Below, in pieces: positions 156-63,072 of a stretch of DNA of 64,000 nucleotides. Each line of letters begins with the position of its first letter. The first letter of the stretch is position 1. The stretch lies in NCBI GenBank assembly GCA_020058975.1, contig JAGVDA010000266.1, forward strand, positions 1 to 64,000, given 5' to 3'. The position numbers and the translations under genes were made by a program. This DNA is from Thermosynechococcus sp. WC_1 (GTDB lineage Bacteria; Cyanobacteriota; Cyanobacteriia; Thermosynechococcales; Thermosynechococcaceae). The notes below the pieces were generated by a model. That model searched no databases and was not told the DNA's origin. It saw only the letters and a list, made by a program, of their open reading frames with translations.

Positions 156-305
156 CTAAGGGACAATCACTTTATCACCCTTGCGGTCCTGATAGCGATG
201 GTGATAGGTAGCCTCATCACCCTTGTCAACAACAAGGTTGACGTCAACAACAAGGTTGACGTCAACCTTTCCATCTTTACGCTTATGTGTTGCTTGAAAT
301 GTCAT
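156..305 (-). CDS. 49-aa protein with doubled KVDVNL repeat
   Basis: ATG at 305-303 overlaps the TGA of the upstream gene as ATGA, so translation is probably coupled. The protein starts MTFQATHKRK and contains two in-frame translations of the GGTTGACGTCAACC palindrome (KVDVNL then VDVNL) around residues 13-24. The tail is basic and ends KVIVP. The two palindromes look like a tandem duplication inside the gene. Function unknown; a longer ORF on the opposite strand here is probably a shadow. Confidence 0.55.
   Translation of the reverse strand: MTFQATHKRKDGKVDVNLVVDVNLVVDKGDEATYHHRYQDRKGDKVIVP
234..269. repeat. Palindrome copies 1 and 2 (tandem)
   Basis: AAGGTTGACGTCAAC at 234-248 and AAGGTTGACGTCAACCTT at 252-269. 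Both lie inside the 49-aa gene and are translated as KVDVNL/VDVNL. Confidence 0.9.
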
Positions 306-604
306 TTGCTTTCTCCTTCTAAAATTGTTCCGTTATTAACTTCCATTTCGATTGTAGTCGCAATTCTGTCTGCTACTCGTAGAGGATACAGAATTGCGAA
401 CTCTTTAGCACTCAGAATTAGGCGACTAATCCTGACTGGAATACCGTCTAGTTTAGCATACCAGAATAGAAAAGACCGATTGGAGCTATGATGTTTTCCC
501 AAGCGAGCGACCAGTGCTTCCCCATCTTTAGAATCGAGAATATGAAAACCGCTGGTTTGCGGGGGAAGCTCAACGTGGAGCATTTGTGGATAGCTAACAA
601 GCAT
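302..604 (-). CDS. Hypothetical protein, 100 aa
   Basis: Starts MLVSYPQMLH and overlaps its upstream neighbour (594..1163) by 11 nt and its downstream neighbour by 4 nt, which is typical of a packed operon. There are no transmembrane segments, Cys clusters or recognised motifs. The C-terminal half has mixed hydrophobic and basic strands (KEFAILYPLRVADRIATT). Function unknown. Confidence 0.6.
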   Translation of the reverse strand: MLVSYPQMLHVELPPQTSGFHILDSKDGEALVARLGKHHSSNRSFLFWYAKLDGIPVRISRLILSAKEFAILYPLRVADRIATTIEMEVNNGTILEGESK

Positions 605-1163
605 AACTTATCTCCTTAATAAAAGCAGTGTTTTGATTGGTATCAACTGTAAGAATAAATTGTTGGCCCTCAAAGTCGATTTCGGGGTAGGGAGTGCGAG
701 CAATGGTCTGATAAAGATCATAGGCATCAATTGAGGATTTATGCTGCTGCTGTGCCTTGTTATATCCGTTACAGAGAAGGTTGACCGTCAACCTTTTTAG
801 GTTTTCGTCCACCATGTCATGGGTTTTCTCTACCATTTCTGTAAAAATTTCTCTTTCCTCACATTCGAGGTCGGACAACTCTGGAAGAGTATCTCCATAG
901 CTTTCCATATCTTCCCAAACTGAGCTTATATCGCTCTCCAAGCGGATTGGTTCCCAAGGTGCTCGAACGAATTGGGTTGCCCCAATGGCTTCAAACTCAT
1001 TTTCAGCGGTCCCTTGAGGTTGACCGAAATGTTCAACAACATCATGGGCAATGAGACTCATATGAGTTGCGGCATTGAGGCGTTCATTATGTTCGGTCCC
1101 TTTAATATACAATCCTGTTTCTCTTAAATTCTCATCGGTTTTTACTATCAGGTGAATTTTCAT
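594..1163 (-). CDS. Hypothetical protein, 189 aa
   Basis: Largest gene of the left operon, and acidic in its middle (SDLECEEREIFTEMVEK). The start ATG at 1163 touches the end of the upstream gene. A variant palindrome with one extra central base (GGTTGACGGTCAACC on this strand) shifts the frame and is read as KRLTVNL near residues 122-128. This shows the DNA palindrome being kept while the encoded peptide changes. No family recognised. Confidence 0.65.
   Translation of the reverse strand: MKIHLIVKTDENLRETGLYIKGTEHNERLNAATHMSLIAHDVVEHFGQPQGTAENEFEAIGATQFVRAPWEPIRLESDISSVWEDMESYGDTLPELSDLECEEREIFTEMVEKTHDMVDENLKRLTVNLLCNGYNKAQQQHKSSIDAYDLYQTIARTPYPEIDFEGQQFILTVDTNQNTAFIKEISYAC
777..796. repeat. 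Palindrome copy 3 (odd centre)
   Basis: AAGGTTGACCGTCAACCTT-type copy with one extra central base, inside the 189-aa gene. Confidence 0.8.
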
Positions 1164-1501
1164 CAGAAACTCTCCAAAGGTTGACGGTCAACCCTTCTCG
1201 CTTTGTGAAGGTGAAAGAGAACTTGACGAGAACCTTTACGAACAAAATGAGGTTCGATTTCATATACTGAAACTTCAATACCCACTTGGCTCATTCTGCT
1301 GTCTTGACTGGATTTTGGGAACCAGTTACGCATTTGGGTAATTGACTCAAATCCACAATATTCGACGCCGTGTTCGGGACAACCTAAGCCTTCTTGATAA
1401 GGAGTCGGAACAGAAGGCTGCGAGTGGTCTGCTGCCTGATTATAGGCGTGCATGTAAACGCCAATTTGCGTGACTGTCTCAAGACGATATATCCTAATCA
1501 T
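1163..1501 (-). CDS. Hypothetical protein, 112 aa
   Basis: Starts MIRIYRLETVTQIGVYMHAY. The centre holds a Cys/His pattern (CPEHGVEYCGF, about residues 41-51) that could bind metal. The C-terminus RRVDRQPLESF is encoded by a palindrome copy read in another frame. It overlaps both neighbours by one to eight nt. Function unknown. Confidence 0.65.
   Translation of the reverse strand: MIRIYRLETVTQIGVYMHAYNQAADHSQPSVPTPYQEGLGCPEHGVEYCGFESITQMRNWFPKSSQDSRMSQVGIEVSVYEIEPHFVRKGSRQVLFHLHKARRVDRQPLESF
1176..1192. repeat. Palindrome copy 4
   Basis: AAGGTTGACGGTCAACC, again with an extra central base. It overlaps the 3' end of the 112-aa gene. Confidence 0.8.
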
Positions 1502-1775
1502 GGGGGTCAGCCTCCCGGATTAGTGAACGAGATTGGTCCAGAATGATTTTCTCAATTAGATTTGGGTCTGCATTTATTTGCGGAGCCAGCCAATTAGAAA
1601 ACTTGGTTTCGCAAATGAAACCGCAGGAATGAAAAGTCCAATCCTCACAATAAGAGGACATGATACCCACATCTGGTTCGGCTGGGAGCCAGTATGGTTT
1701 AAGTTCGACTTCAAATTCTATTTCGGAGTCGATTTCAAGGGTCTCGAATAGGTTGGTTTGATCGAAGGTAAGCAT
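1494..1775 (-). CDS. Hypothetical acidic protein, 93 aa
   Basis: Starts MLTFDQTNLFETLEIDSEIE after a good AGGAG site 8 nt upstream (TTTAGGAGATTATT). Acidic, with scattered Trp and Cys and no known domain. It overlaps the next gene by 8 nt. Function unknown. Confidence 0.65.
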   Translation of the reverse strand: MLTFDQTNLFETLEIDSEIEFEVELKPYWLPAEPDVGIMSSYCEDWTFHSCGFICETKFSNWLAPQINADPNLIEKIILDQSRSLIREADPHD

Positions 1776-1902
1776 AATAATCTCCTAAACTGTCTTGATT
1801 ACGATGTAGTGGGTTAGGAAACTGACTAAGGTTGACGTCAACCTTTATTAGTTGAGAATGAGAAAGCTTATAATCCTCACTGAAAATATCAGCAGCCACC
1901 AT
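1735..1902 (-). CDS. Possible 55-aa protein with KVDVNL
   Basis: ATG at 1902 opens a 55-codon frame starting MVAADIFSED, with the palindrome again translated as IKVDVNLS near residues 20-25. It overlaps the start of the 93-aa gene by 41 nt and has no good ribosome site. I list it mainly because the palindrome sits in the same reading frame as in several neighbouring genes. Confidence 0.4.
   Translation of the reverse strand: MVAADIFSEDYKLSHSQLIKVDVNLSQFPNPLHRNQDSLGDYYAYLRSNQPIRDP
1828..1845. repeat. Palindrome copy 5
   Basis: AAGGTTGACGTCAACCTT, a perfect 18-bp palindrome. Confidence 0.9.
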
Positions 1903-2003
1903 TTTGAGGGAAATTTAATATAAATTTTGCTGCCTCATGCTGGGCCTGTAATCGACCTAAAACCGGGGGGTTTTGTTTTGTGATCTATCAATTTGGTTTT
2001 CGG

Positions 2004-2207
2004 TTATCGGTTATCGTAATAGCCCTTGACGTATAAGTCATGTAAAGCAGACACAGAGCTGTCTTTTCGGATAGGAATGCGCCTGTCATTGAAGATGAAA
2101 ATGAATTTAGCATCATCAGGAAATGTTTGGACGAGATTTATAGCATCCTCCAAACATTTCCTAATGTGGCCCGAATAGGGTTTTAGGGTGATTTCAAACA
2201 GGGTCAT
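2004..2207 (-). CDS. Hypothetical protein, 67 aa
   Basis: Starts MTLFEITLKPYSGHIRKCLE and ends YVKGYYDNR. The start overlaps the end of the RMF-like gene upstream by 14 nt. It looks like a compact alpha/beta protein, but no family is recognised. Confidence 0.6.
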   Translation of the reverse strand: MTLFEITLKPYSGHIRKCLEDAINLVQTFPDDAKFIFIFNDRRIPIRKDSSVSALHDLYVKGYYDNR

Positions 2208-2553
2208 TGTTGAGATAGCCTTTTAACCAGAGTTGATGCTCTTTCGGGTTGTTTTTCTTCGTGTATGGATTGGATTTTATCGGCTGTTTTCGCTCCCATG
2301 CGTAGAAGCCTTCTGCTTCTGGGTCTAGGTTGACGTCAACCTTTTTCGGTTGGGCCATGCGCCGTCTAGCGTTGATGAGTCGTACCATTTGGAGCTGCTT
2401 TTCCCAGTTAGGAATTGGGGTTTGATCTGGCACCCCCTGGGCAAAAGGTAAAGTGCTGCCCTTTGATGTAGACATATCCATGACGTCAGGAATTACAAAT
2501 TGAATACCTGTGGATAGTAACGGAGCAGGATGGGGGTCAGCATTGGTAAACAT
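2194..2553 (-). CDS. RMF-like C-terminal domain protein
   Basis: I place the start at the ATG at 2553 (MFTNADPHPA), 9 nt after AAGGAG, giving 119 aa; a longer frame upstream has a poorer site. The C-terminus (EGFYAWERKQP, SNPYTKKN, LWLKGY) resembles the ribosome modulation factor family pattern: Gly/Ala helix, N/C-P-Y, then W..GY. RMF proteins bind 70S ribosomes and promote hibernating dimers, so this may act on host ribosomes (inference). The palindrome is translated as QPKKVDVNL just before this domain. A second RMF-like gene lies at 62.1 kb. Confidence 0.5.
   Translation of the reverse strand: MFTNADPHPAPLLSTGIQFVIPDVMDMSTSKGSTLPFAQGVPDQTPIPNWEKQLQMVRLINARRRMAQPKKVDVNLDPEAEGFYAWERKQPIKSNPYTKKNNPKEHQLWLKGYLNNDPV
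2327..2343. repeat. Palindrome copy 6
   Basis: AGGTTGACGTCAACCTT followed by TTTCGGTTGGGC. The longer unit recurs at 2922 and 3767. Confidence 0.9.
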
Positions 2554-2554
2554 T

Positions 2555-2713
2555 TCAAAATCTCCTTGGGCCTTCATGGCACATTTCAATGTCGCCGTAG
2601 CGTTCGCAATCGGCTTCCCACATTTTAACCATTGCTCGGTCGAATACGAATAGCAGAATTGTAAGCAAGATTAGGGCTGTGATTGTGATTGTGATTGTGA
2701 TTGTGCGTCTCAT
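2555..2713 (-). CDS. 52-aa single-pass membrane peptide
   Basis: ATG at 2713 overlaps the upstream stop as ATGA. The N-terminus is MRRTITITITIT, encoded by a hexanucleotide repeat, and runs into a hydrophobic helix (ALILLTILLFVF, about residues 13-24), then a soluble tail ending CHEGPRRF. This predicts an N-in membrane anchor. Function unknown; small early phage membrane proteins often inhibit host functions, but nothing here proves that. Confidence 0.6.
   Translation of the reverse strand: MRRTITITITITALILLTILLFVFDRAMVKMWEADCERYGDIEMCHEGPRRF
2679..2705. repeat. TGATTG hexanucleotide repeat
   Basis: About four to five tandem copies of a TGATTG-type hexamer. They encode the Thr-Ile repeats of the 52-aa membrane peptide. 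Confidence 0.85.
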
Positions 2714-2898
2714 CTGTGAAAACTCACTGGAGCCGTGCTCCGGTAATAACCGTCTTTGGTTTTGGACGTATTCGCTTTGGCAGCGGCTTTCTGGCTGGCA
2801 GTTCTGTAGGGTTTACGGTTGAGGGTGTTGATTGTTGGGCTTTTGTCGCCCTGACGATGCATTCTTGTGAATTGCGTTTCATAACTGGAGATATTCAT
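2710..2898 (-). CDS. Hypothetical basic protein, 62 aa
   Basis: Starts MNISSYETQF and is strongly basic (PYRTASQKAAAKANTSKTK), so nucleic-acid binding is possible. Its upstream 53 bp (2888-2940) is duplicated at 3246-3299, including the start MNIS and a palindrome. Confidence 0.55.
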   Translation of the reverse strand: MNISSYETQFTRMHRQGDKSPTINTLNRKPYRTASQKAAAKANTSKTKDGYYRSTAPVSFHR

Positions 2899-2940
2899 TT
2901 CTAAATCCTTTTCTGGTTGTTAAGGTTGACGTCAACCTTT
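2888..2940 (-). repeat. Duplicated leader, copy A
   Basis: Near-identical to 3246-3299. It contains a palindrome, an AAAAGGA ribosome site and an ATG reading MNIS. In copy B the ORF stops after nine codons. Confidence 0.75.
2922..2939. repeat. Palindrome copy 7
   Basis: AAGGTTGACGTCAACCTT, with the same TTTTCGGTTGGGC extension as copy 6. Its TGA supplies the stop codon of the 34-aa ORF. Confidence 0.9.
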
Positions 2941-3036
2941 TTCGGTTGGGCTTTTGTCGCTGTCACTGGCGAGCATAGCAGCGGGTGTGTTTGGGTTAAG
3001 GGGCAGGCTTTGCAAAAATAATTGTTCGTTGGTCAT
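2932..3036 (-). CDS. Possible 34-aa peptide
   Basis: ATG at 3036 overlaps the TGA of the upstream 55-aa gene (ATGA). Starts MTNEQLFLQS. The stop codon lies inside palindrome copy 7, so insertion of the repeat may have shortened an older gene. Function unknown. Confidence 0.4.
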   Translation of the reverse strand: MTNEQLFLQSLPLNPNTPAAMLASDSDKSPTEKG

Positions 3037-3200
3037 GGTTTAGGCGTCCTCTTTTCCTGCTCTAGTAAATAATCCAGTAGGTCTTGCAGTACGTATCCCA
3101 CACTGTCTTGACATTCACCTTCACTTTCACTTTCACTTTCACCTACACAATCGTATCTTATACGGTAAAGCCGGTCTGAAAGGTGCGTGATTACACTCAT
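3033..3200 (-). CDS. 55-aa acidic protein with Glu-Ser repeat
   Basis: Starts MSVITHLSDR after AGAGGAT. The centre is GESESESEGE, encoded by an AGTGAA-type hexanucleotide repeat (3115-3146 on the plus strand). The C-terminus looks helical (YVLQDLLDYLLEQ). Function unknown. Confidence 0.55.
   Translation of the reverse strand: MSVITHLSDRLYRIRYDCVGESESESEGECQDSVGYVLQDLLDYLLEQEKRTPKP
3115..3146. repeat. TTCACT hexanucleotide repeat
   Basis: Tandem TTCACT units inside the 55-aa gene, encoding Glu-Ser repeats. Confidence 0.8.
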
Positions 3201-3245
3201 ATTTTATATCCTCTCAAGAACGCTTGTTAGTTTGTCATAGTCATA

Positions 3246-3299
3246 GAGATATTCATTTCTAAGTCCTTTTCGGATTGTTAAGGTTGACGTCAACCTTTT
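3246..3299 (-). repeat. Duplicated leader, copy B, with palindrome 8
   Basis: Second copy of the 53-bp leader, with palindrome 8 (AAGGTTGACGTCAACCTT) at 3280-3297. The attached reading frame (MNISMTMTN) ends after nine codons, so this is a promoter or leader duplication, not a working gene. Confidence 0.7.
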
Positions 3300-3302
3300 G
3301 CT

Positions 3303-3349
3303 GCTTAAATTTTAGGCACAGGGACTCCACGACTGCCTAAAATTTAAGC
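3303..3349. terminator. Perfect 16-bp inverted repeat
   Basis: GCTTAAATTTTAGGCA (3303-3318) pairs exactly with 3334-3349 around a 15-nt loop. There is no long T-run. It could be a transcription terminator, a processing site or part of a replication origin. Confidence 0.6.
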
Positions 3350-3446
3350 AATCTTTTAAAATACCAACAACTCGGAATTTTCACTAATTGTTGGTTAGTA
3401 GCCCAGACCCACACCCACATTCAAATTCACATTCTTAAAAATAAAT

Positions 3447-3560
3447 CACATTGTAATGTGATTATGAATCACATTCACACTTACACCCACATTCAAATTC
3501 ACATTGTAATGTGATTATGAATCACACTCACACTCACACTCAAATTCACATTTTAATGTG
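3447..3560. repeat. Three CACATT..AATGTG repeats
   Basis: CACATTGTAATGTG at 3447-3460 and 3500-3513, and CACATTTTAATGTG at 3547-3560, each followed by ATTATGAAT. Spacing is 53 and 47 bp, and each core is an inverted repeat. Iteron-like. Confidence 0.8.
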
Positions 3561-3634
3561 ATTATGAATAGAACCTGAATGACTTTTATTCTCTATTAAA
3601 TATTTTAGACATTCCCACGCGAAGAAAAAAATAA

Positions 3635-3653
3635 TACAAGTTGCATACTTGTA
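3635..3653. promoter_or_regulatory. ACAAGT-TGCA-ACTTGT palindromic box
   Basis: TACAAGTTGCATACTTGTA, nearly palindromic. Related boxes occur at 5005, 12867 and 56423, each beside a transcription-unit boundary. Probably a protein-binding site. Confidence 0.5.
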
Positions 3654-3657
3654 ACAA

Positions 3658-3816
3658 TTATAAGAAAATCCAGTGCTCGCCTTTCTCAAGAATTGGCACA
3701 AATTCCAATTCCCCATTATACAAGTCGTCAAAGTCTCTATCTATTAGGAATTGATTATCTTGGTTTAGGTTGACGTCAACCTTTTTCGGTTGGACCATAA
3801 AGTCGGAATTTTCCAT
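3658..3816 (-). CDS. 52-aa protein with QPKKVDVNL
   Basis: ATG at 3816 follows AAGGA (AGAAAGGAAAAGCA). Starts MENSDFMVQP, then the palindrome reads KKVDVNL (residues 11-17), then an acidic C-terminus ending EHWIFL. The QPKKVDVNL stretch matches the RMF-like gene at 2.2 kb exactly. Function unknown. Confidence 0.55.
   Translation of the reverse strand: MENSDFMVQPKKVDVNLNQDNQFLIDRDFDDLYNGELEFVPILEKGEHWIFL
3767..3783. repeat. Palindrome copy 9
   Basis: AGGTTGACGTCAACCTT with the TTTCGGTTGGAC extension, inside the 52-aa gene. Confidence 0.9.
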
Positions 3817-3868
3817 TGCTTTTCCTTTCTATCAAGAACCAGACACAAACAATCAGCGGGATTGTGGG

Positions 3869-4480
3869 TTATGCCGCCTTCATAGCTTGCTCTAGGTTAG
3901 CGCTAACCTTAGCTTCCAGTTTGGCAATCTTAACCACTAAGTCCGCTAATTGCGCGTTAGCTGCTAAGCTATGAGCTAGAGCATTATCTGCCATTGCGTT
4001 GTCAATATGGTAGTTAAGACTAGATATGGCATGGCTTAGGGTTGCCATATCGGGCGCTTTCTTAGGATTGCTCTCTGCTTGTTGTTGTCGGGGGGCAGTG
4101 TCGCGCCGTACAGTGGTTAGACTTTCACCATTCACCACGCGGTTTATGTGTTCTGAACCCGCGGCTATCACCCGTTTTAAGTCATAAAACCACCCTTTGA
4201 TGGTTGAACCGCAATCGCCGATTGTTGCGCTATCACAGTCAAACTCTTGTTGTGCTTCACCTTTTAACACTTGCAAACGATAATCGTTGATTAGCTGTTT
4301 TTCAACCGCTTCAATTGTTAGCTCACCAAGCGCAATACCGCTTGCGGCGAGCATTGCCCAATTATTCTTGACTTGGGCAGTGGCGGCAATAACGCCGTCA
4401 ATTTTATTAGCTGCGTGGAAACAGCGAGCGCTTGCCAATTCGAAGGCTTTTTGATCAAACTTCATTGTCTTAACTTTCAT
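3869..4480 (-). CDS. Hypothetical protein, 203 aa
   Basis: Starts MKVKTMKFDQ; the sixth-codon ATG is an alternative. Ala-rich and helical, with a C-terminal heptad-like stretch (LADLVVKIAKLEAKVSANLEQ) that could be a coiled coil. KVSANL comes from a compensated palindrome variant (GGTTAGCGCTAACC). First gene of the left operon, preceded by a degenerate palindrome at 4484. Function unknown. Confidence 0.6.
   Translation of the reverse strand: MKVKTMKFDQKAFELASARCFHAANKIDGVIAATAQVKNNWAMLAASGIALGELTIEAVEKQLINDYRLQVLKGEAQQEFDCDSATIGDCGSTIKGWFYDLKRVIAAGSEHINRVVNGESLTTVRRDTAPRQQQAESNPKKAPDMATLSHAISSLNYHIDNAMADNALAHSLAANAQLADLVVKIAKLEAKVSANLEQAMKAA
3893..3908. repeat. Palindrome copy 10 (compensated)
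   Basis: AGGTTAGCGCTAACCT. The core changed on both arms, so it is still a perfect palindrome. Confidence 0.75.
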
Positions 4481-4483
4481 TGT

Positions 4484-4501
4484 TAGGTTGACACGGCAAC
4501 C
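4484..4501. repeat. Palindrome copy 11 (degenerate)
   Basis: AGGTTGACACGGCAACCT, directly upstream of the 203-aa gene. Confidence 0.6.
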
Positions 4502-9611: not shown

Positions 9612-9788
9612 TTAAGAGGTGTAAATACTTAGAACCATATTTTCTTGAACTCTCCAATGCTCTCTCATGGAACCCCCCTGTGGTGGTTGTCTGTAGAAAA
9701 TTACCCATCCCCCCGTAATTTCATATCTATCAGCTTCGATATCTCGAATATCTCCTTGGAGTCCTAATTCTAACCTGTATTTTTTCAT
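9612..9788 (-). CDS. Hypothetical protein, 58 aa
   Basis: ATG at 9788 overlaps the helicase stop as ATGA, showing translational coupling. Starts MKKYRLELGLQGDIRDIEAD, then a Trp/Tyr-rich strand (GGWVIFYRQPP) and MREHWRVQEN. No family recognised. It closes the leftward primase operon just before the terminator. Confidence 0.65.
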   Translation of the reverse strand: MKKYRLELGLQGDIRDIEADRYEITGGWVIFYRQPPQGGSMREHWRVQENMVLSIYTS

Positions 9789-10939
9789 TTTCTGTCTCCA
9801 TAGTTAATAGTGACATCTTCGACCAACCAGTCTTGATGCCCCATACCATCATCTTTGAGTTGGATAACGTAGTCGAGGTCTTCAAGCATTTGATTAAATC
9901 TTTCGAATGTAACTGCGGCACCTCTACCAATATCTTTTTGATGGAAGGTATACTGATCATATAGGTCCCGGGCCATTGTAACTTCACCTTTTTTCCGAGC
10001 AATATTCTTATTACTGTCGAGAAAGGCTTTGACTGAGTTATTTATCCTTCGAAGCTGCTCCATTCTGAAATTATGGGATAAACTTTTGGTATAATCCCCT
10101 TGCTTACGTAGCCTCACCATACCCTCCAAAGCCCAAGCAGCAATAGCTTCCCGCTCATCCGCAACAATGCTTTCAGCAAGATTCTTAACTCTAAGATGCT
10201 CCGGAACGACATTACTAAAATCCCATATAAGCCAACGGCGGATGAAGCCCATCGAACTATCTTTACTGGTAGGCATAAAATTGGACCCGAACCAATGAGC
10301 CGCAATCGGACGATATAGAAATTTATCTCTACCCTTGTACTCGGTTTCCTGAGGAGACCCCTCAACCACCTGCTTAAAGATGTTGCCTGTGATCACTCCC
10401 GACTCTGGCAGTTCTGCACAGATATTAGCTACTTTCCCCACTAATCTGGTTTGAGCAAACTGTTTTCCCCATTCTTCAGGACTAAGCGATGATATAGCGT
10501 CGGGAGGTAGAAGAGACCTCAAAATATCTAATAATACTGTTTTACCAGTCCCGGCCTTACCTACAAATAGCAGTGCTCTTTGAAAGTCAGTCGCTACCCC
10601 AAATAGGGTAGCAGCGAATCCCTCTTGAAGTCCTTGAACTCTCTCCCGAAAATCAGGCTCATTACCCCAACAATCTCCTAAGAACTCAAAAAACCTATTG
10701 GCTCTAGAAGCCAATTCAGGCTTGTATTCAAATGGAAGAGTAAAGGTAGCACCATATTTTGGAGAGTGCTCATCAATCGACAAATCTTCGGAGACCCAAC
10801 CATTTGCAAAGTTAATACCGTTTTCCATTCTTTCGATCAGAGGTTTTCTACACATTCTCTCTAAGACTTTTGTTACGCTGGCGTAATCATTATGTCGTTG
10901 AACGAGTTTTGAACCTTTGATATTATTTGCAATTTGCAT
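9785..10939 (-). CDS. SF3 (D5-type) replicative helicase half
   Basis: 384 aa from the first in-frame ATG. It has Walker A GKAGTGKT near residues 127-134, a downstream acidic segment (NICAELPESG) and RRWLIWDF, as in helicases of P4/D5-type phage primases; it unwinds DNA at the fork. The frame stays open for 26 codons before this ATG (including FWQWNGSCF, a motif normally internal to such proteins) back to the TGA ending the primase gene. Joined, the two halves give about 820 aa, usual for a fused primase-helicase. The stop may be read through, or this half may restart at the ATG. Confidence 0.8.
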   Translation of the reverse strand: MQIANNIKGSKLVQRHNDYASVTKVLERMCRKPLIERMENGINFANGWVSEDLSIDEHSPKYGATFTLPFEYKPELASRANRFFEFLGDCWGNEPDFRERVQGLQEGFAATLFGVATDFQRALLFVGKAGTGKTVLLDILRSLLPPDAISSLSPEEWGKQFAQTRLVGKVANICAELPESGVITGNIFKQVVEGSPQETEYKGRDKFLYRPIAAHWFGSNFMPTSKDSSMGFIRRWLIWDFSNVVPEHLRVKNLAESIVADEREAIAAWALEGMVRLRKQGDYTKSLSHNFRMEQLRRINNSVKAFLDSNKNIARKKGEVTMARDLYDQYTFHQKDIGRGAAVTFERFNQMLEDLDYVIQLKDDGMGHQDWLVEDVTINYGDRK

Positions 10940-11017
10940 ATAAATTTCTTCGTGGGGGACGTGCTTAAAGCATGATCCGTTCCACTGCCAAAATTTATCT
11001 TTATCAAATCTTATTTC

Positions 11018-12253
11018 TCAAATTCTTTCAATCTGCTCAAGAACAGCTCGGGCAATGGTTTCATGGTCTTCCCAATCTTCTCCTCCCTCAGCTTTTCTTT
11101 TAGCAGCTTTATAGCCTTGAAGAAGGTCTGCCTTCCCAAGTTTGAGATTATCGGAACTGGCAATTTTCTGAATGAAACCAAGCAAAGCTCTAAAGTCCAT
11201 TTCTGAAAATTTATCATCTTTAGCTACTAGAGATAATAATTCTTGGACCCTAGCCATAGCCCAATCGTCATCTCCCGGTTGCTCGGCCAATTTTCCCCGA
11301 AGCCAATCTCTAGCCTTTACTACTGTCCATCGTGACACCTGATTCTTTTCAGCAATCAGTTTAATTGATTCATTTGCAAGCCAGTGTTCAGTGAGATTTG
11401 CATCCCACCCTTCGGGTAAAGACTTTCCTTTTTCCAAGTCTTTGATCAAAAACTCGAAAAGTTTTGCTATCCCTTTGCCGGGGTCCATATTGTCCCCACT
11501 GGAAACAGTTGTGGTAAACTGGCGAACCCAATGAGTCATATGATCAATGGCTTCTTGTAGGGAGAATTGAGCGGCCTTATCCATGCCTAGAACAACTCTT
11601 GCAAGATAGCCTGCATGACGAATCATTTGAACATCACGTTCGCCCTCTGGAACGATATCTACGGGGCCGGAACGAGTTCCCTTTGCCACCGAGAAACCTC
11701 TAGCGTTAAGTAAGTCTCGTAACTGACTATCGATATCATCTGCCAAAGGTAGTATCTGATCGATAACCTCATAAAGATTAGTGTTTGCTTTATAAGGTTT
11801 CCCCGTATCTGGGTGAATAGAAGGTGGAACCACCATTTGGTTACCTAAGCCCAAAAATTCGCAAATCATTCCATCCTGATCACTGCGAAGTTTGAAGTTA
11901 CGCTGACCAGACCAACGATAAATCAGACCCATACCCTTGGCACCAATACGAACCCAAGGGGACTTAGGAAGAATATCAAGAATGGCTTTTACCAACTCTT
12001 CATTCTCAGTATCAATATCTATAGCACACAGACCAGAAGCTGACCCGAAAGGTAATCCAATATTACAGTCAGGATAACTGTTAAGCCAAGCCTGCTTTTC
12101 GGTATCAGTCGGCATGACTGAGCCAAATTTCGGCCAATCATTTAGTATCGGAGCTTTACCCCGACCTTTTTGATCCACATTATGTGGTTTCAAAGGAATC
12201 ACTGGTAGGCCTGCTGCCCAATACAGTGGTGCGTGTTCTGCAAAAATTGTCAT
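11018..12253 (-). CDS. Primase-polymerase N-terminal half
   Basis: 411 aa starting MTIFAEHAPLYWAAGLPVIPL, the typical beginning of bifunctional DNA primase/polymerase (Prim-Pol) domains. AIDIDTEN near residues 93-100 supplies the acidic catalytic pair and GLIYRWSG follows. Middle and C-terminal regions look like the linker of P4-type primases. It ends QIERI-TGA, with the helicase continuing in the same frame straight after. Start ATG lies 1 nt after the stop of the upstream gene. Confidence 0.8.
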   Translation of the reverse strand: MTIFAEHAPLYWAAGLPVIPLKPHNVDQKGRGKAPILNDWPKFGSVMPTDTEKQAWLNSYPDCNIGLPFGSASGLCAIDIDTENEELVKAILDILPKSPWVRIGAKGMGLIYRWSGQRNFKLRSDQDGMICEFLGLGNQMVVPPSIHPDTGKPYKANTNLYEVIDQILPLADDIDSQLRDLLNARGFSVAKGTRSGPVDIVPEGERDVQMIRHAGYLARVVLGMDKAAQFSLQEAIDHMTHWVRQFTTTVSSGDNMDPGKGIAKLFEFLIKDLEKGKSLPEGWDANLTEHWLANESIKLIAEKNQVSRWTVVKARDWLRGKLAEQPGDDDWAMARVQELLSLVAKDDKFSEMDFRALLGFIQKIASSDNLKLGKADLLQGYKAAKRKAEGGEDWEDHETIARAVLEQIERI

Positions 12254-17735: not shown

Positions 17736-18950
17736 ATGCCTAACTTTAAGCCTCTAACGGATTTGACCACAGCTCGGGTTTCTGCCGAACAGCTTGTTGG
17801 TAAGCTGAAATCCAACAGCCAAACGGAGTCGTTGGAGGCAGGTATGAACCTGCTTTCTCAGGCGCGCGAATATGGTCTAAATATTGCTGACTACCTACGT
17901 CTAAAGGTGCAACCGGACGGTCTCGCTCTTGAGGCAGGCCTCGATGGTTATGAAGCTGTTAAGATGTATCTTGGCCTGCCTACGAAGGATGATTACCGCA
18001 ATGGTGTTGTGCTTCAAGCAGCTGCGGATGCGTTTTCCAGCTATCGTGGTGTTCGCGCCCTCTTCCCTGAGGTTGTAGACGACGTAGTTCAGTGGAAATA
18101 TCGTCAAACAGACTTTGAAAGTCCTGACGCCCTGATTTCGCAGAGCCGCACGATTAACGGAACTGAGTTGATCACCACTGTTGTCAACGACAACAAGGAA
18201 GACTACGAGCGTTATGGCATGATTGCCGAAGGTGCGCGTGTGCCAGTTTGGTCAATCAAAGCTTCGGAACATTCGGTTAAGATTTTCAAGTTCGGTATCG
18301 GACTAGAGTGGACTTACGAATTTGGACGTCGTGCTAGCCTTGATCTTATTGCACCTTACGCCCTTCGTGCTGAAAAGCAAACGAAGCGCGCCCAGACTGC
18401 AACGGCTTACGCTATGTTGAAGAACGGAGATGCTGTTGCTTCTCATGCTGCCGCCCCGGTGCGGAACGCCTCGGCAATTAACACTGACAACAATCTTGGT
18501 GTCACTGGGGTAGCCGCTGGCAAGTTGAACTGGGAAATTCTCCTTGCTTGGCTTGTCGAGCGAGCGAAAGCAGGTGCTCCTATTGATACGGTAGCTGGTA
18601 ACTGGGATACATTCCTACAATGGAAGCTGATGTTTGCCAAAAACACACTCAGCGACGGTTTGACTCAGATCGAAGCACTGCAACGTGCAGGGGTTACAGT
18701 TGCGCAGGAAAATCCTCGTTTCGACCTCAACCTTAATTTCGCACTGGTTTCCAGCGCGAGTGCTAATGAGTTGCTTGGTTTCTCGAAGGCGGATACTCTT
18801 GAGGAACTTATTGAGAACGGTTCGGATATCGAGGAATCGGAGCGCGTTATGCAGAACCAGAAGGTTAATCTGTATAGCACAAAGAATGCAGGTTACCGCC
18901 TGATCTTTGGTGACACCCGCTCGGTCCTAAACCTTAACGCTATTGCTTAA
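17736..18950 (+). CDS. Major capsid protein
   Basis: 404 aa, HK97-fold capsid protein by position and composition: N-terminal helices (ARVSAEQLVGKLKSNSQTE), no Cys, higher GC codon choice than its neighbours, which suggests strong expression. It follows protease and decoration genes and precedes a strong hairpin. ALFPEVVDDVVQWKYRQTD resembles the N-arm/E-loop boundary. Confidence 0.8.
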   Translation: MPNFKPLTDLTTARVSAEQLVGKLKSNSQTESLEAGMNLLSQAREYGLNIADYLRLKVQPDGLALEAGLDGYEAVKMYLGLPTKDDYRNGVVLQAAADAFSSYRGVRALFPEVVDDVVQWKYRQTDFESPDALISQSRTINGTELITTVVNDNKEDYERYGMIAEGARVPVWSIKASEHSVKIFKFGIGLEWTYEFGRRASLDLIAPYALRAEKQTKRAQTATAYAMLKNGDAVASHAAAPVRNASAINTDNNLGVTGVAAGKLNWEILLAWLVERAKAGAPIDTVAGNWDTFLQWKLMFAKNTLSDGLTQIEALQRAGVTVAQENPRFDLNLNFALVSSASANELLGFSKADTLEELIENGSDIEESERVMQNQKVNLYSTKNAGYRLIFGDTRSVLNLNAIA

Positions 18951-18960
18951 GGTAAAATCT

Positions 18961-18988
18961 AGAGGGGCGGAGAATTCTCCGCCCCTCT
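18961..18988. terminator. 28-bp perfect palindrome after capsid gene
   Basis: AGAGGGGCGGAGAA followed by its exact reverse complement. There is no T-run, so it may protect the capsid mRNA or act as a partial terminator. Confidence 0.75.
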
Positions 18989-29784: not shown

Positions 29785-30239
29785 TTCTTGTTTCAGAACC
29801 TTTTCAAGGTAAGGTTTTTAATTTAGGAGTTCAAGACTGTTTCAGTCTTTGTATTGACTTTTTCAAAGAGAATTTTGATATCAAAATTCCTAATATTTCC
29901 CGACCCCATGATTGGGATGCAAATAAGCTTGACCTTATCAATGATTTCTACCATCTGAGTGGTTTCAAAAAAATAGACGCCGAATCAGAATGGCCTCCTC
30001 GCCCCGCAGATGTTTTGGTCACGACAATTAGTGGAAGTAATCCAAACCACCTTGTGGTTTATTTAGGTTCAAATGAAATTTTACATCACCCAACCGGGCA
30101 ACTTTCTAAAAAAGAATTGATGAGACCTGTTTGGAAAAGATTCACCTCCTATATTTTAAGACACCCAGAGGTTCCTGACCTTACCGCATCTAAACCATTG
30201 GTAACATTAGAGGATATTTTAGATGAAAGATTTATTTAG
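29781..30239 (+). CDS. NlpC/P60-type tail-tip peptidase
   Basis: 152 aa. Candidate catalytic C20 in LGVQDCFSLC, H90 in NPNHLVVYLG and a following HHPTG. It corresponds to the C-terminal domain of lambda K, a cysteine peptidase that can cut peptidoglycan cross-bridges. Here it is a free-standing gene placed before the JAMM gene; in lambda K the JAMM domain comes first, in the same polypeptide. Confidence 0.75.
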   Translation: MILVSEPFQGKVFNLGVQDCFSLCIDFFKENFDIKIPNISRPHDWDANKLDLINDFYHLSGFKKIDAESEWPPRPADVLVTTISGSNPNHLVVYLGSNEILHHPTGQLSKKELMRPVWKRFTSYILRHPEVPDLTASKPLVTLEDILDERFI

Positions 30240-59679: not shown

Positions 59680-59755
59680 TGGCACAGGCACAAAGACTCG
59701 AACTTTGCTCTTCGGTTTTGGAGACCGATACATCACCTCTAAATGCTTTACCTGC
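59680..59755 (-). tRNA. tRNA-Trp (CCA)
   Basis: Acceptor GCAGGTA/TGCCTGT, D stem GCAT/ATGT, anticodon arm TCGGT-CTCCAAA-ACCGA, T arm CAAAG-TTCGAGT-CTTTG, encoded CCA. Two G-U pairs in the acceptor and one in the D stem. Confidence 0.85.
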
Positions 59756-59841
59756 TCTACAGGTACCTCCTAAACCATCCACTCTAGTCATTTTACACTC
59801 ACAAGGAGGACCATGAGGGCATCGTGCTGGGTAGATATACT

Positions 59842-59916
59842 TGGTAGTTCCGGAGAGATTCGAACTCTCACCCCGGCCCTTATGAGGGGCTGGCTCTACC
59901 ATTGAGCTACGGAACT
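59842..59916 (-). tRNA. tRNA-Met (CAT), copy a
   Basis: Acceptor AGTTCCG/CGGAACT, anticodon loop CTCATAA, T arm GAGAG-TTCGAAT-CTCTC, encoded CCA. A fully paired first base argues against initiator; it could be an Ile tRNA read after lysidine modification. Confidence 0.88.
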
Positions 59917-59944
59917 ACAGATTTTCATAGACCTAATGAGCCAG

Positions 59945-59995
59945 TCAAAATGGGAGAACCAGAGCAGCGGGGAAATCCTCGAAGAGATTGGACAT
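59945..59995 (-). CDS. Possible 16-aa peptide between tRNAs
   Basis: AGGAG, 7 nt, then ATG; the frame reads MSNLFEDFPAALVLPF. Very short, so this may be chance, but the ribosome site is perfect. Confidence 0.25.
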   Translation of the reverse strand: MSNLFEDFPAALVLPF

Positions 59996-60012
59996 TCTAA
60001 TTCTCCTAAAAA

Positions 60013-60103
60013 TGGTCTGGAAGGTCAGATTCGAACTGACAAGGGATATTACTCCACCCGCTTCCAAAGCGGGACCGCTACCTGATTACGGGCCTACTCC
60101 CAG
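60013..60103 (-). tRNA. tRNA-Pro (TGG) with long variable arm
   Basis: Acceptor CTGGGAG/CTTCCAG, anticodon arm CCCGC-TTTGGAA-GCGGG, T arm GTCAG-TTCGAAT-CTGAC, encoded CCA; 91 nt. The variable region is 16 nt, as in Ser/Leu/Tyr tRNAs, which is abnormal for Pro. Confidence 0.7.
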
Positions 60104-60110
60104 AGAAATT

Positions 60111-60187
60111 TGGCTGACCATGTAGGACTCGAACCTACCATATGCAGATTAACAGTCTGCCCCGTCCACCTTGTTCGGCTATGGCCA
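60111..60187 (-). tRNA. tRNA-Asn (GTT)
   Basis: Acceptor TGGCCAT/ATGGTCA, anticodon arm GCAGA-CTGTTAA-TCTGC, T arm GTAGG-TTCGAGT-CCTAC, encoded CCA. Confidence 0.9.
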
Positions 60188-60204
60188 TCATTGCTTGAAA
60201 ATTT

Positions 60205-60279
60205 TGGTAGCGGGAGAAGGACTCGAACCTTCGACCTTCAACTTATGAGGCTGACGAGCTGCCACTGCTCTATCCCGCT
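60205..60279 (-). tRNA. tRNA-Met (CAT), copy b
   Basis: Acceptor AGCGGGA/TCCCGCT, D arm GAGC..GCTC, anticodon loop CTCATAA, T arm GAAGG-TTCGAGT-CCTTC, encoded CCA. Confidence 0.88.
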
Positions 60280-60356
60280 ACACCTAGTTTGATGCTTAAA
60301 CCCCACAGGGGGTTATGCCATCGTATCTGCCTCAGAGATACTCTATGATTTTTCAC
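60270..60356 (-). CDS. Possible 28-aa peptide running into tRNA-Met
   Basis: GTG at 60356 after AAAGGAGAG; the frame (M)KNHRVSLRQIRWHNP continues to a TAG made of tRNA-Met bases 8-10. A good ribosome site, but short. Confidence 0.3.
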   Translation of the reverse strand: MKNHRVSLRQIRWHNPLWGLSIKLGVAG

Positions 60357-60415
60357 GTTTCTCTCCTTTCCAGATTGAGTTGATAACTTTCCTTTAGAGG
60401 AAATTTTTATATGTG

Positions 60416-61021
60416 TCAACTCTTCATTTCAGCCCACTTACCTTGTTCATCATAATCGAAAGTTTTTTTGAATGCTACACCAGATTTACGGTGAAACATA
60501 ACAATACCTTCTGGGTCCATGAAGCCGGGGGCGTGATAGCTTCCATTTTCCTTTAACATGGTCATTATGCCTTGAGCCGCACCATCCGGATTATTCAGAT
60601 ACTCATCTTGAATAAAAGTGTGAACAACCTCACAACATTGAGGACGATCTGGATTATCTTTCCAACGCAAGCTGTTGAAAAGTGCAAATCTTTTTTCTCC
60701 GCCAGTCAGCCCATAACCTCGCTTGATTCCAGAACCATACCACTCTCCGAAGTGTCGGCCTTCCCCTAGTTTGAAAAGCTCACTAACATTATGTGAAACA
60801 AATCGAGCAAAACCCATGTTATCCTTATCTAAGGATAACCAGCGGTTGCGCGAACCAGCAAATAGATAATAGCCCTCATGCTCTGTCAGAGCAGCTCCGG
60901 GTTCTGATTGATAATCAGCCTTAGGTCGCCAAGCAACCTGCGCATTAGTTCCATCAAGTTTTTCAGTTATCGTCCAACCCTGACTAAAACGAGTCAAACT
61001 AGAAAAGCGTTCAAAGTCCAT
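60416..61021 (-). CDS. RNA ligase, Rnl2-like
   Basis: 201 aa. Nucleotidyltransferase motifs: I EKLDGTNAQ with AMP-acceptor K21, III-like GEWYGSG (92-98), IV DPEGIVMF, V AFKKT. No C-terminal extension, so this is a minimal ligase core. It would seal nicked RNA, for example tRNA cut by host anticodon nucleases; it lies among the tRNA genes. Overlaps the truncated phosphoesterase by 11 nt. Confidence 0.85.
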   Translation of the reverse strand: MDFERFSSLTRFSQGWTITEKLDGTNAQVAWRPKADYQSEPGAALTEHEGYYLFAGSRNRWLSLDKDNMGFARFVSHNVSELFKLGEGRHFGEWYGSGIKRGYGLTGGEKRFALFNSLRWKDNPDRPQCCEVVHTFIQDEYLNNPDGAAQGIMTMLKENGSYHAPGFMDPEGIVMFHRKSGVAFKKTFDYDEQGKWAEMKS

Positions 61022-61235
61022 TGATAATCTCCATCAAGTCTATTGGGGTGTAATTGATTTGTTCCATGCTCACACAACGGTAGCGAGGGTCTGAATAATT
61101 TCCATAGAAGATTTCTCCTACTTTTGACTGTATCAATTTATCATGAGTATGCCCATGCACATTTAATTTCCATCTATTCATGGATTGAGGGTGAATAGGA
61201 ATATGAGACATGATCAACCCATGCTCCGGCTTCAC
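61011..61235 (-). pseudogene. Truncated metallophosphoesterase fragment
   Basis: About 66-74 aa (GTG at 61235 or ATG at 61211). EHGLIMSHIPIHPQ and LNVHGHTHDKL are the last two motifs of calcineurin-like phosphoesterases; the first three motifs (DxH, GD, GNH) are missing and the upstream DNA is tRNA-Gln. A perfect AGGAGA-ATG pair just upstream opens a different frame (MAREAGAWVD, 22 codons). Probably a gene remnant left by tRNA insertion or deletion. Confidence 0.6.
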
Positions 61236-61258
61236 GAGCCATATGTATCTCCTAAAAC

Positions 61259-61335
61259 TGGTTCCCCGCTCAGGCCTCGAACCTGTTTCTTGGGATTCAA
61301 AGTCCCAGATTTTAACCAAATTAAACTATCGGGGA
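61259..61335 (-). tRNA. tRNA-Gln (TTG)
   Basis: Acceptor TCCCCGA/GCGGGGA with one mismatch at the inner end, anticodon arm TGGGA-CTTTGAA-TCCCA, T loop TTCGAGG, encoded CCA. Confidence 0.8.
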
Positions 61336-61336
61336 A

Positions 61337-61410
61337 TGGAGCGGAATGCGGGACTCGAACCCGCTTCTTTAGCTTGGAAGGCTAAGGCACAACCCATATA
61401 CCAAATCCGC
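61337..61410 (-). tRNA. tRNA-Gly (TCC)
   Basis: Acceptor GCGGATT/ATTCCGC with one mismatch, anticodon arm TTAGC-CTTCCAA-GCTAA, T arm GCGGG-TTCGAGT-CCCGC, T then CCA. 1 nt from tRNA-Gln. Confidence 0.85.
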
Positions 61411-61415
61411 AATGA

Positions 61416-61484
61416 TGGAGCATAACGGAGTTGAACCGTTCCTAGCTCCTTGCAGGGGAACCGTCGGCACCCCCTCGGATGACC
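61416..61484 (-). tRNA. Degenerate tRNA-like sequence (TGC?)
   Basis: Good T arm AACGG-TTCAACT-CCGTT and a possible anticodon arm GTTCC-CCTGCAA-GGAGC (TGC), but base 33 would be C, the 5' half is about 3 nt short and the acceptor pairs poorly. Likely a decaying tRNA; the amino acid is not certain. Confidence 0.35.
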
Positions 61485-61694
61485 TTAAACTTGTATGTAA
61501 TCAAATCTTCCTTTTACATTCTCGTTAAAGAAAATTCCAACTGAATTTGCTATGATCATAGATTCATAAATTGTTTTTGGAACCGCATCATATTCATAAA
61601 CAAGTCCTGAGTTGAACTCCACTTCCAAAGTCTCTGTAGACTCATCATATCCCACAGCAGCAATATTTGAACTTGAGACCGATATTCTATCCAT
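61485..61694 (-). CDS. KTSC-domain protein
   Basis: 69 aa from the ATG at 61694, 7 nt after AGGAG. SSSNIAAVGYDESTETLEVEF, VYEYDAVPKTIYESMI and SVGIFFNENVKGRFDY match the KTSC domain, a small fold often fused to or found beside nucleic-acid enzymes. Exact role unknown. Inserted between two tRNAs. Confidence 0.8.
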   Translation of the reverse strand: MDRISVSSSNIAAVGYDESTETLEVEFNSGLVYEYDAVPKTIYESMIIANSVGIFFNENVKGRFDYIQV

Positions 61695-61709
61695 TTTCAT
61701 TCTCCTAAA

Positions 61710-61784
61710 TGGTGCCGGATTGAGGACTCGAACCCCATTCTTTCGCTTACAAGGCGACTGCATCCCCACTATTGCTCATCCGGC
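61710..61784 (-). tRNA. tRNA-Thr (TGT)
   Basis: Acceptor GCCGGAT/ATCCGGC, anticodon loop CTTGTAA, T arm TGGGG-TTCGAGT-CCTCA, encoded CCA. Confidence 0.87.
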
Positions 61785-61786
61785 GC

Positions 61787-61862
61787 TGGTGTAGAAGGTA
61801 GGACTCGAACCCACATCTGCGAGGCTTCAACTCGCCGCTAAGACCTCATCAGCTACTTCTAC
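61787..61862 (-). tRNA. tRNA-Phe (GAA)
   Basis: Acceptor GTAGAAG/CTTCTAC, anticodon arm GCGAG-TTGAAGC-CTCGC, T arm GTGGG-TTCGAGT-CCTAC, encoded CCA. Confidence 0.88.
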
Positions 61863-61863
61863 A

Positions 61864-61944
61864 TGGACCCCCAGACAGGATTCGAACCTGCATTTTCATC
61901 CAGTTATCCGTTTCTTGGTTCGTAGCCAAGGGGAATACTGAGGG
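61864..61944 (-). tRNA. Atypical tRNA-Arg (ACG), no normal D arm
   Basis: Acceptor CCCTCAG/CTGGGGG, anticodon arm CTTGG-CTACGAA-CCAAG, T arm GCAGG-TTCGAAT-CCTGT, encoded CCA; 81 nt. Only 7 nt separate acceptor and anticodon stems, so no D arm can form, while the variable region is 22 nt. It fits between neighbours with 1-nt gaps. Confidence 0.55.
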
Positions 61945-61945
61945 A

Positions 61946-62020
61946 TGGTAGTCCGTGAGAATTATGCTATCCCGACCTTCCCCTTGTAAGGGGGACGCTC
62001 TACTTCTGAGCTAACGGACC
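61946..62020 (-). tRNA. tRNA-Val (TAC) with odd T loop
   Basis: Acceptor GGTCCGT/ACGGACT, D arm GCTC..GAGC, anticodon arm TCCCC-CTTACAA-GGGGA, encoded CCA. The T arm lacks TTCGA; a GGGA/TCTC stem closes the loop TAGCATAAT. Confidence 0.65.
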
Positions 62021-62022
62021 AT

Positions 62023-62098
62023 TGGTTGTTCCAGTAGGACTCGAACCTACGACACAGCGATTATCAGTCGCTTGCTCTACCAACTGAGCTATGGAACA
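62023..62098 (-). tRNA. tRNA-Ile (GAT)
   Basis: Complete cloverleaf: acceptor TGTTCCA/TGGAACA, anticodon arm AGCGA-CTGATAA-TCGCT, T arm GTAGG-TTCGAGT-CCTAC, encoded CCA. Confidence 0.92.
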
Positions 62099-62238
62099 TC
62101 ATTCTTAACGTCAAAATATCCTTTCAACCAAATCCATTTATTTTTCCCTCGTTTGAAAGGACAATCTGAATGAGAAAGACCATTATATGCCGCTGATCTT
62201 CCATTGTTTTCTACTGAACCTTCATTCCAATGTAGCAC
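62089..62238 (-). CDS. RMF-like 49-aa protein
   Basis: GTG at 62238 lies 7 nt after AGGAG. NEGSVENNGRSAAYNGLSHS, CPFKRGKNKW and WLKGYFDVKND fit ribosome modulation factor (E-G..A-x-x-G....C-P-F/Y....W..G). The TAG stop is formed by bases 8-10 of tRNA-Ile. With the RMF-like gene at 2.2 kb it suggests the phage handles host ribosomes. Confidence 0.55.
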   Translation of the reverse strand: MLHWNEGSVENNGRSAAYNGLSHSDCPFKRGKNKWIWLKGYFDVKNDVP

Positions 62239-62251
62239 ATCATATCTCCTT

Positions 62252-62326
62252 TGGTCGGCCCGAGGGGAATCGAACCCCCATTTCCTGATTGAAAGTCAAG
62301 CGTCTTAGCCATTAGACGACGGGTCG
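62252..62326 (-). tRNA. tRNA-Glu (TTC)
   Basis: Acceptor CGACCCG/CGGGCCG with one A-C mismatch, anticodon arm CTTGA-CTTTCAA-TCAGG, T arm GGGGG-TTCGATT-CCCCT, encoded CCA. Confidence 0.85.
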
Positions 62327-62512
62327 TCTACCAGCTTAACTCAATTCTCAATGTAGGAGTTGGGTTTAGACTAGTAGAGAGGTTCAGCCGAAGCGAATCT
62401 CTCGTTCACGCACGACAGCGAACCCACCTTGGCGGGTCGCTGTCGTTCCAATAAAGGTTGCGTTACTAGTCATAATGATCAACCCATAGCAAGGTAAATG
62501 ACCTATGTCAAG
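62327..62512. other. Intergenic region with strong hairpin
   Basis: ACGACAGCGA (62412-62421) pairs exactly with 62437-62446. A leftward 29-codon frame (MTSNATFIGTTATRQGG) spans it but has no ribosome site. No other gene seen. Confidence 0.45.
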
Positions 62513-62570
62513 TGGAGCGACGAACAGGACTCGAACCTGCATGTTCTTGAGCCATTTCCGCCACCGTCGC
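62513..62570 (-). tRNA. 58-nt tRNA-like acceptor/T-arm RNA
   Basis: Acceptor GCGACGG/TCGTCGC, T arm GCAGG-TTCGAGT-CCTGT and TCCA end are intact, but only 23 nt join acceptor and T stem, so there is no anticodon arm. A deletion remnant or a deliberate tRNA mimic. Confidence 0.45.
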
Positions 62571-62582
62571 TAAAGAAAGAAG

Positions 62583-62659
62583 TGGTGAACGGCCCTAGAC
62601 TTGAACTCGGAACCCCCGACTTAAAAGGACGGTGCTCTAACCTATTGAGCTAGCCGTTC
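62583..62659 (-). tRNA. tRNA-Lys (TTT)
   Basis: Acceptor GAACGGC/GCCGTTC, D arm GCTC..GAGC, anticodon loop CTTTTAA, T loop TTCAAGT, encoded CCA. Mismatches in the anticodon and T stems. Confidence 0.8.
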
Positions 62660-62971: not shown

Positions 62972-62988
62972 ACTATTCTCCTTAAAAA

Positions 62989-63066
62989 TGGTGCGCCTAG
63001 TAGGACTCGAACCTACAACCTACCGATTAGAAGTCGGCAACTCTATTCCAGTTGAGCTATAGGCGC
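62989..63066 (-). tRNA. tRNA-Arg (TCT)
   Basis: Acceptor GCGCCTA/TAGGCGC, anticodon arm GCCGA-CTTCTAA-TCGGT, T arm GTAGG-TTCGAGT-CCTAC, encoded CCA. It is just downstream of the tmRNA. Confidence 0.92.
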
Positions 63067-63072
63067 AAAAAC

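Follow-up and report, generated by a model that had tools for sequence, protein, structure and literature searches.

What does a short palindrome do when it recurs inside genes, at stop codons and directly before start codons of one small region? The question is raised by the left 4.5 kb of a 64,000-nucleotide stretch of DNA (the window) from contig JAGVDA010000266.1 of the Thermosynechococcus sp. WC_1 assembly GCA_020058975.1, which comprises bases 1-64000 of a 75,082-bp phage contig (G000:C559, hereafter W). An original prediction, made from the letters of the window alone, had described a palindrome series there, and the series proved to be real. The perfect 14-mer GGTTGACGTCAACC occurs six times in the window (254, 1830, 2328, 2924, 3282 and 3768), and the palindrome extends to 18 bp (AAGGTTGACGTCAACCTT) at 252, 1828, 2922 and 3280 and to 16 bp at 2327 and 3767. 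These six perfect copies had all been predicted, but the copy placed at 234 (236-249) lacks its last C; the variants given as 777, 1176, 3893 and 4484 are present as well (777-795, 1179-1193, 3894-3909 and 4486-4501), although the last of them is asymmetric. Two further perfect 14-mers lie beyond the window on the same contig (72,923 and 74,360), and odd-centre forms with an added central C or G are found at 779, 1179, 68,740 and 69,676. Since the cluster goes on at 68.7-74.4 kb, past the window end, the copies form one zone of about 11 kb on a circular map. In total, W contains 12 perfect 7+7 palindromes (spacer 0 or 1) with the half-site GGTTGAC, compared to a maximum of 1 after dinucleotide shuffling. 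A separate count gave 8 matches with at most 3 mismatches, compared to a chance mean of 1.37. The IMG/VR record UViG_2830687482_000006 has the same sites. The motif search over genome and relatives that had been recommended was carried out, and a pattern search of the host assembly found no copy on its other 579 contigs; the exact 14-mer was not found in the literature.

Exact scans recovered the W palindrome in three other IMG/VR contigs, G001 (57 kb, 13 copies), G002 (46 kb, 5 copies) and G003 (34 kb, 6 copies), of which G002 and G003 may be one phage, since they come from the same sample and hold complementary parts of the gene map. Several intergenic copies in G001 and G002 are the cores of longer perfect palindromes with differing arms, up to 36 bp. 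The palindrome was not found in the contigs nearest to W by primase, such as G005, in which another palindrome, ATCGCATAWTATGCGAT, is present three times at the corresponding location. Named relatives identified by primase tblastn were Caulobacter phage Seuss, Achromobacter phages JWF and 2-1, Xylophilus phage Lumi and Acinetobacter EAb13-type phages, and Pseudoalteromonas phage KB12-38 is a relative by its terminase; the genomes of Seuss, Lumi and EAb13 end in direct repeats that are long. An unbiased palindrome search gave the families TTTACCT-S-AGGTAAA in Seuss, GGTTCGT-W-ACGAACC in JWF and 2-1, TTACTAG-W-CTAGTAA in Lumi, and both GGGTAACGTTACCC (nine copies) and GGGCTGACTCAGCCC (four copies) in KB12-38, while the family of EAb13 is uncertain because there is a single clear site per terminal repeat. 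Scanning with a primase alignment built from eight phages added more relatives, and about 18 of these carry, downstream of the primase, a palindrome family of their own, such as CCAAAAATTTTTGG (seven copies), GTGCGAC-N-GTCGCAC (ten) and TCCCCGGCCGGGGA (five). Altogether, about 25 relatives have a palindrome family, mostly with a different sequence in each lineage and restricted to the early-gene region, whereas only 2 of 50 other loci used as controls have even a two-copy family. Because relatives have other palindromes at the same sites, it is the symmetry of the DNA that stays constant and not the residues, as the original prediction had argued.

No DNA-level match to the W sequence was found in the 'phages' collection, and the prophage-like relatives L143-L148, L152 and L154 have no palindrome family within 10 kb. 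Loci found by the 15-mer alone (L014, L016-L020, L022 and L023) hold single copies, which are probably due to chance, and were rejected. None of the publications on Seuss, Lumi, Mystique, TCUP2199 or JWF refers to palindromes. The second family of KB12-38 (L058; 55608, 67097, 71546 and 76792) is followed by the same leader as the first, and L079, L104 and L067 have second families too, perhaps indicating a second regulator. In L057 and L058, a recurrent 5' leader, palindrome-TAATTAAACTAAAACT..GGATTGAC..ATG, precedes many early genes.

One gene is always associated with the sites and in W encodes P203, an alanine-rich protein of no known family that is modelled as all-helical and is our candidate for the cognate DNA-binding regulator. 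A tblastn search with P203 gave no match in the 'phages' collection, and counterparts in the named relatives (195-292 aa; Seuss gp3, JWF gp2 and Lumi_003) were located by position. The P203-type gene opens the early region and falls within the long direct terminal repeat of Seuss, JWF, Lumi and EAb13. It has a palindrome on its 5' side in 27 of 27 cases, a count that is partly circular for the IMG/VR loci, whose gene was chosen as the one following the first palindrome. The second palindrome near its stop codon, present in 24 of 27 cases compared to an expectation of 0.86 per 27 windows, is free of that circularity. Scans for P203 relatives gave only phages found before. The P203 proteins fall into several groups, with no detectable similarity between groups; the JWF type corresponds to phrog_33934, of unknown function. 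AlphaFold returned an all-helical P203 with a predicted local distance difference test score (pLDDT) of 63 from three sequences in the alignment, and for the L104 type (pLDDT 76) an N-terminal helical domain modelled with confidence, followed by a disordered linker and further helices at the C-terminal end.

The palindrome changes together with this gene. Half-site similarity was on average 4.63 for phages with homologous P203 proteins (26 pairs) and 1.36 for the others, a difference reached in 0 of 5000 permutations, and when the range of primase identity was matched, pairs with divergent P203 proteins scored 4.24 compared to 1.23 for pairs with unrelated P203 proteins. The primases of G003 and G005 are 94% identical while their P203 proteins and palindromes are unrelated, whereas W and G001, with primases 61% and P203 proteins 27% identical, share the same palindrome. 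Therefore, the palindrome sequence tracks the P203 locus and not phylogeny. Of the options that had been put forward for the series, a set of operators fits best, and we consider it probable that the palindromes serve as operators for a sequence-specific DNA-binding regulator encoded by the phage. This regulator is most likely P203 and would act as a roadblock within transcribed operons.

The placement of the sites was counted for 155 of them, using gene calls from a simple purpose-made caller and random placement as expectation. More than half (82/155) were located within 60 nt 5' of a start codon, compared to 13.6 expected, 22 were at stop codons (10.0 expected), and 32 were within genes, where 103 were expected. 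The start-associated sites sit 1-57 nt 5' of the start codon, and in Seuss the Shine-Dalgarno sequence falls within the palindrome. That some copies create a stop codon or lie before starts was confirmed, as the 2922 copy provides a TGA and several others are directly 5' of start codons. The W zone includes rIIB and rIIA homologues (L005 9717-12906; contig 69717-72906), and positions are partly conserved, since W and G002 both have a site 5' of rIIA and, 3' of rIIB, a doublet; the rIIA site was not found in G005 or G001. In JWF and Lumi, a sigma-70-like promoter sequence can be read by eye roughly 100 nt before the 5' site, which is therefore probably in the transcribed leader and not in the promoter.

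Copies with an even centre that are located in genes of W, G001 and G003 are all translated in one frame (14/14), the frame that had been predicted, giving mostly KVDVNL but also VVDVNL, KVDVNP, KVDVNS, LVDVNP and RVDVNL; the other frames would meet a stop codon or, probably, rarer codons. One G001 copy is at the end of the gene for peptidyl-tRNA hydrolase 2 (PTH2; PF01981), and solved PTH2 proteins align without a gap across its KVDVNL stretch. One W/G003 orthologue pair retains the site at an identical position. Because of these two observations, we conclude that the site arises by substitution where the peptide is tolerated, and the comparison of orthologues proposed for detecting an insert did not reveal one.

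In the mechanism that we propose, a P203 dimer would bind two half-sites of 5-7 bp that are one helical turn apart. With one site just before its start and another at its 3' end, the P203 gene would be under its own control, and P203 would be a fast-diverging, autoregulating repressor. Since the other sites are found where early genes begin or end, inside transcribed operons, the bound protein would block elongating RNA polymerase, a stoperator-like form of silencing, rather than compete for promoters. As a result, early genes would be throttled, dormancy would be maintained in temperate members, and phages with the same sites would be excluded. As sites and protein must match, regulator cassettes would diverge or be swapped, after which a new palindrome would spread through the early genes. 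JWF makes turbid plaques, can be reinduced by ultraviolet light, and has been reported to be temperate (PMC3899368). Its deposited annotation names neither an integrase nor a repressor. An integrase is annotated in KB12-38, and Burkholderia paludis MSh1 carries the palindrome family of a relative within a contig of 290 kb. For these reasons we favour an immunity-type repressor, the throttling of early genes in a lytic phage being a possible alternative.

Several features bear on whether DNA or RNA is recognised. In Lumi, TTACT-N5-AGTAA occurs 17 times, always with a spacer of 5 and never with any other spacer from 0 to 12, and the inner bases are mostly unpaired. In most families, 5-bp half-sites are 4-5 bp apart, about one helical turn, and single changes in the core are one-sided in 29 cases and symmetric in 3. 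These features suggest that a dimer reads the sites as duplex DNA. The paired changes that had been thought to preserve symmetry hold for one W copy (AGGTTAGCGCTAACCT), but not for the family as a whole. The sites could also be translational operators, RNA hairpins beside ribosome-binding sites that are bound by P203 or another phage protein and control translation and mRNA ends. Such a role would suit the short distances to start codons, the Seuss Shine-Dalgarno sequence, the long intergenic arms of varying sequence and the repeated palindrome-leader-ATG unit of KB12-38, yet the core is conserved beyond what pairing needs, its changes are mostly one-sided, the central base differs among copies, the Lumi sites are mostly unpaired inside their 5-bp ends, and in-gene copies are armless, so that we find this rather unlikely. 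Intercistronic terminators or RNA-processing hairpins, suggested by long arms at gene 3' ends and by T-rich sequence after some copies (W 2922, KB12-38), are very unlikely. Unlike intrinsic terminators, which combine a GC-rich hairpin with a T run, most long-arm copies have no T run, many copies are in genes or at ribosome-binding sites, and neither RNase III nor intrinsic termination requires sequence identity within a phage or a change between phages.

The remaining explanations accept DNA sites but assign them differently. P203 might be a passenger, with the sites serving another linked regulator or a host protein, which would account for its lack of a known DNA-binding domain and for the second families in KB12-38 (GGGCTGACTCAGCCC), L079, L104 and L067. 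We regard this as improbable, since the palindrome co-varies with P203 and brackets its gene; a host protein would also leave it unexplained that the sites of the near-identical phages G003 and G005 differ, and no site occurs on the other contigs of the host. Rickettsia palindromic elements are palindromes translated in frame within genes, as insertions much longer than the W palindromes. A mobile, coding-tolerant repeat of this or the repetitive extragenic palindromic (REP) type, one of the suggestions in the original prediction, could explain the many copies and the flanks that are partly common (2327, 2922 and 3767; also 2922 and 3280). However, the orthologues compared show no empty-site insertion signature, the site evolved in place where this was examined (PTH2), the W and G003 orthologues hold it at the same position, and between related phages the sequence changes while positions are retained, which makes such a repeat extremely improbable. 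For a replication-protein site, also suggested before, nothing specific was found, and the copies are spread over many early-gene starts and stops rather than gathered at a single origin. Cyanobacterial small dispersed repeats and HIP1 were dropped because the sites are confined to phage contigs.

Apart from the partly circular 5' count, several observations weigh against the proposed mechanism. P203 and its counterparts have no recognisable DNA-binding domain in Pfam or PHROGs and no match of known function, and fold searches with the P203-type models gave no convincing match, nothing exceeding the helical-bundle background. The protein that binds could also be the product of another gene linked to P203, and the W contig has no tyrosine integrase. 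In the group of JWF-type P203 proteins, half-sites resemble each other only in part (GGTTCGT, GGTTCAA, AGTGCAG and GTGCGAC), as expected if specificity is moving. At least 4 extra arm pairs were found in 11 of 73 intergenic copies, compared to 0.3 by chance, and complementary arms beyond the core in 0 of 15 in-gene copies; because intergenic copies bear such arms, a hairpin may add function in untranslated regions. Finally, copies of 14 and 15 bases (spacer 0 and 1) occur together in W, which is unusual for a rigid dimer. TetR rows in the fold search, with Z of 4.6 or less, were not credited. As for ParB/parS partition sites, which have a ParB-family protein encoded next to them, no ParB match was found among the P203 proteins scanned.

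Cluster A mycobacteriophages such as L5 and Bxb1 have 20-30 short repressor sites per genome, mostly away from promoters, many of them in short intergenic operon gaps, and the consensus varies by subcluster and co-varies with the repressor (PMC6550527, PMC9283540). The sites of the W family are likewise numerous and for the most part not in promoters; they lie close to the beginnings and ends of genes in early operons, and their phage-specific consensus co-varies with the candidate repressor P203. Their placement resembles stoperators more than classic promoter operators. However, L5 stoperators are 13-bp asymmetric sites oriented with transcription, whereas the W-family sites are palindromes of 14-18 bp; the L5 repressor is a monomer with helix-turn-helix and Stoperator domains, and for P203 no match of known function was found in Pfam or PHROGs and no fold match with its weak models; and, unlike in L5, sites flank the candidate regulator gene, which lies within or close to the terminal repeat. 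We did not file the W system as a stoperator member because it does not have the asymmetric, oriented site, one of the defining features. In cluster K mycobacteriophages, the start-associated sequence (SAS) is one 13-bp asymmetric sequence used cluster-wide by the starts of non-structural genes, and the extended form (ESAS) has an inverted-repeat consensus that differs by subcluster, with imperfect 17-mer arms and a variable spacer; neither had a known binder (PMC3203893). The W-family sites share the link to translation starts of non-structural genes (82/155 versus 13.6 expected) but do not match the asymmetric GGGATAGGAGCCC-type start repeat.

It is conceivable, at slightly less than even confidence, that P203-type proteins form a superfamily, not described before, of regulators of phage immunity whose targets are palindromic stoperators. 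In this widespread group of long-terminal-repeat siphophages, every lineage would have a site of its own, with more than 15 specificities visible, and cassettes would be swapped between near-identical phages, which would then rebuild their site sets through the early genes. In that case, these proteins would supply the immunity system that is missing from temperate phages in which neither an integrase nor a repressor is annotated, JWF among them. More generally, a repeat in hypothetical genes becomes a testable regulator-operator system. The phages sharing it infect Caulobacter, Achromobacter, Xylophilus, Pseudoalteromonas, Burkholderia and marine bacteria, and some such phages are considered for therapy and have an unexplained lysogeny. 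The site specificities, more than 15 in number and each paired with a candidate protein, provide a natural series for studying the co-evolution of protein-DNA specificity and the divergence of immunity groups, and possibly a source of orthogonal DNA-binding parts.

Table 1. The P203 gene and the palindrome copies near it, in window coordinates (ORF, open reading frame; strand in brackets).
Feature	Position	Strand	Remarks
P203 gene	3869..4480	-	203 aa, Ala-rich, all-helical (model), no known family; candidate cognate DNA-binding regulator
Palindrome GGTTGACGTCAACA	236..249		Outermost base (last C) lost; tandem with next copy; in frame in ORF 156-305 (-)
Palindrome AAGGTTGACGTCAACCTT	252..269		In frame (KVDVNL) in ORF 156-305 (-)
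Odd-centre palindrome AAGGTTGACCGTCAACCTT	777..795		Within ORF 594-1163 (-)
Odd-centre palindrome GGTTGACGGTCAACC	1179..1193		3' end of ORF 1163-1501 (-); ~16 nt 5' of ORF 594-1163 (-)
Palindrome AAGGTTGACGTCAACCTT	1828..1845		~52 nt 5' of ORF 1494-1775 (-)
Palindrome AGGTTGACGTCAACCT	2327..2342		In frame (KVDVNL) in ORF 2194-2577 (-); same position in relative G003 (RVDVNL)
Palindrome	2922..2939		Supplies TGA stop of ORF 2932-3036 (-); ~23 nt 5' of ORF 2710-2898 (-)
Palindrome	3280..3297		Followed on - strand by leader closely resembling that of the 2922 copy; leader end AGAAATGAATATCTC
Palindrome AGGTTGACGTCAACCT	3767..3782		In frame (KVDVNL) in ORF 3658-3816 (-)
Symmetric variant AGGTTAGCGCTAACCT	3894..3909		3' end of P203 gene, near position of relatives' 3' bracketing site
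Degenerate copy GGTTGACACGGCAACC	4486..4501		Asymmetric, 2-base spacer; - strand GGTTGCCGTGTCAACC; 5 nt 5' of P203 start; 5' bracketing site

Adjoining the palindromes, window positions 3405-3565 hold imperfect tandem repeats of CACATT/CACACTCAC with ATGTGATTATGAATC units. Two perfect palindromes outside the family were also found, one of 20 bp at 29870-29889 and one of 28 bp at 18961-18988, the latter 3' of ORF 17736-18950 and terminator-like in appearance. The primase/helicase of W (9785-12253) is divided over two ORFs of 411 and 384 aa where relatives have a single ORF of about 816 aa, owing to a frameshift, a sequencing error or a true split. Further along, 12 tRNA genes and a starred (permuted) tmRNA, which overlaps a tRNA-Arg call, are clustered at 59680-63344, and an ORF at 60416-61021 resembles an RNA ligase (PF09414, slightly below the cut-off).

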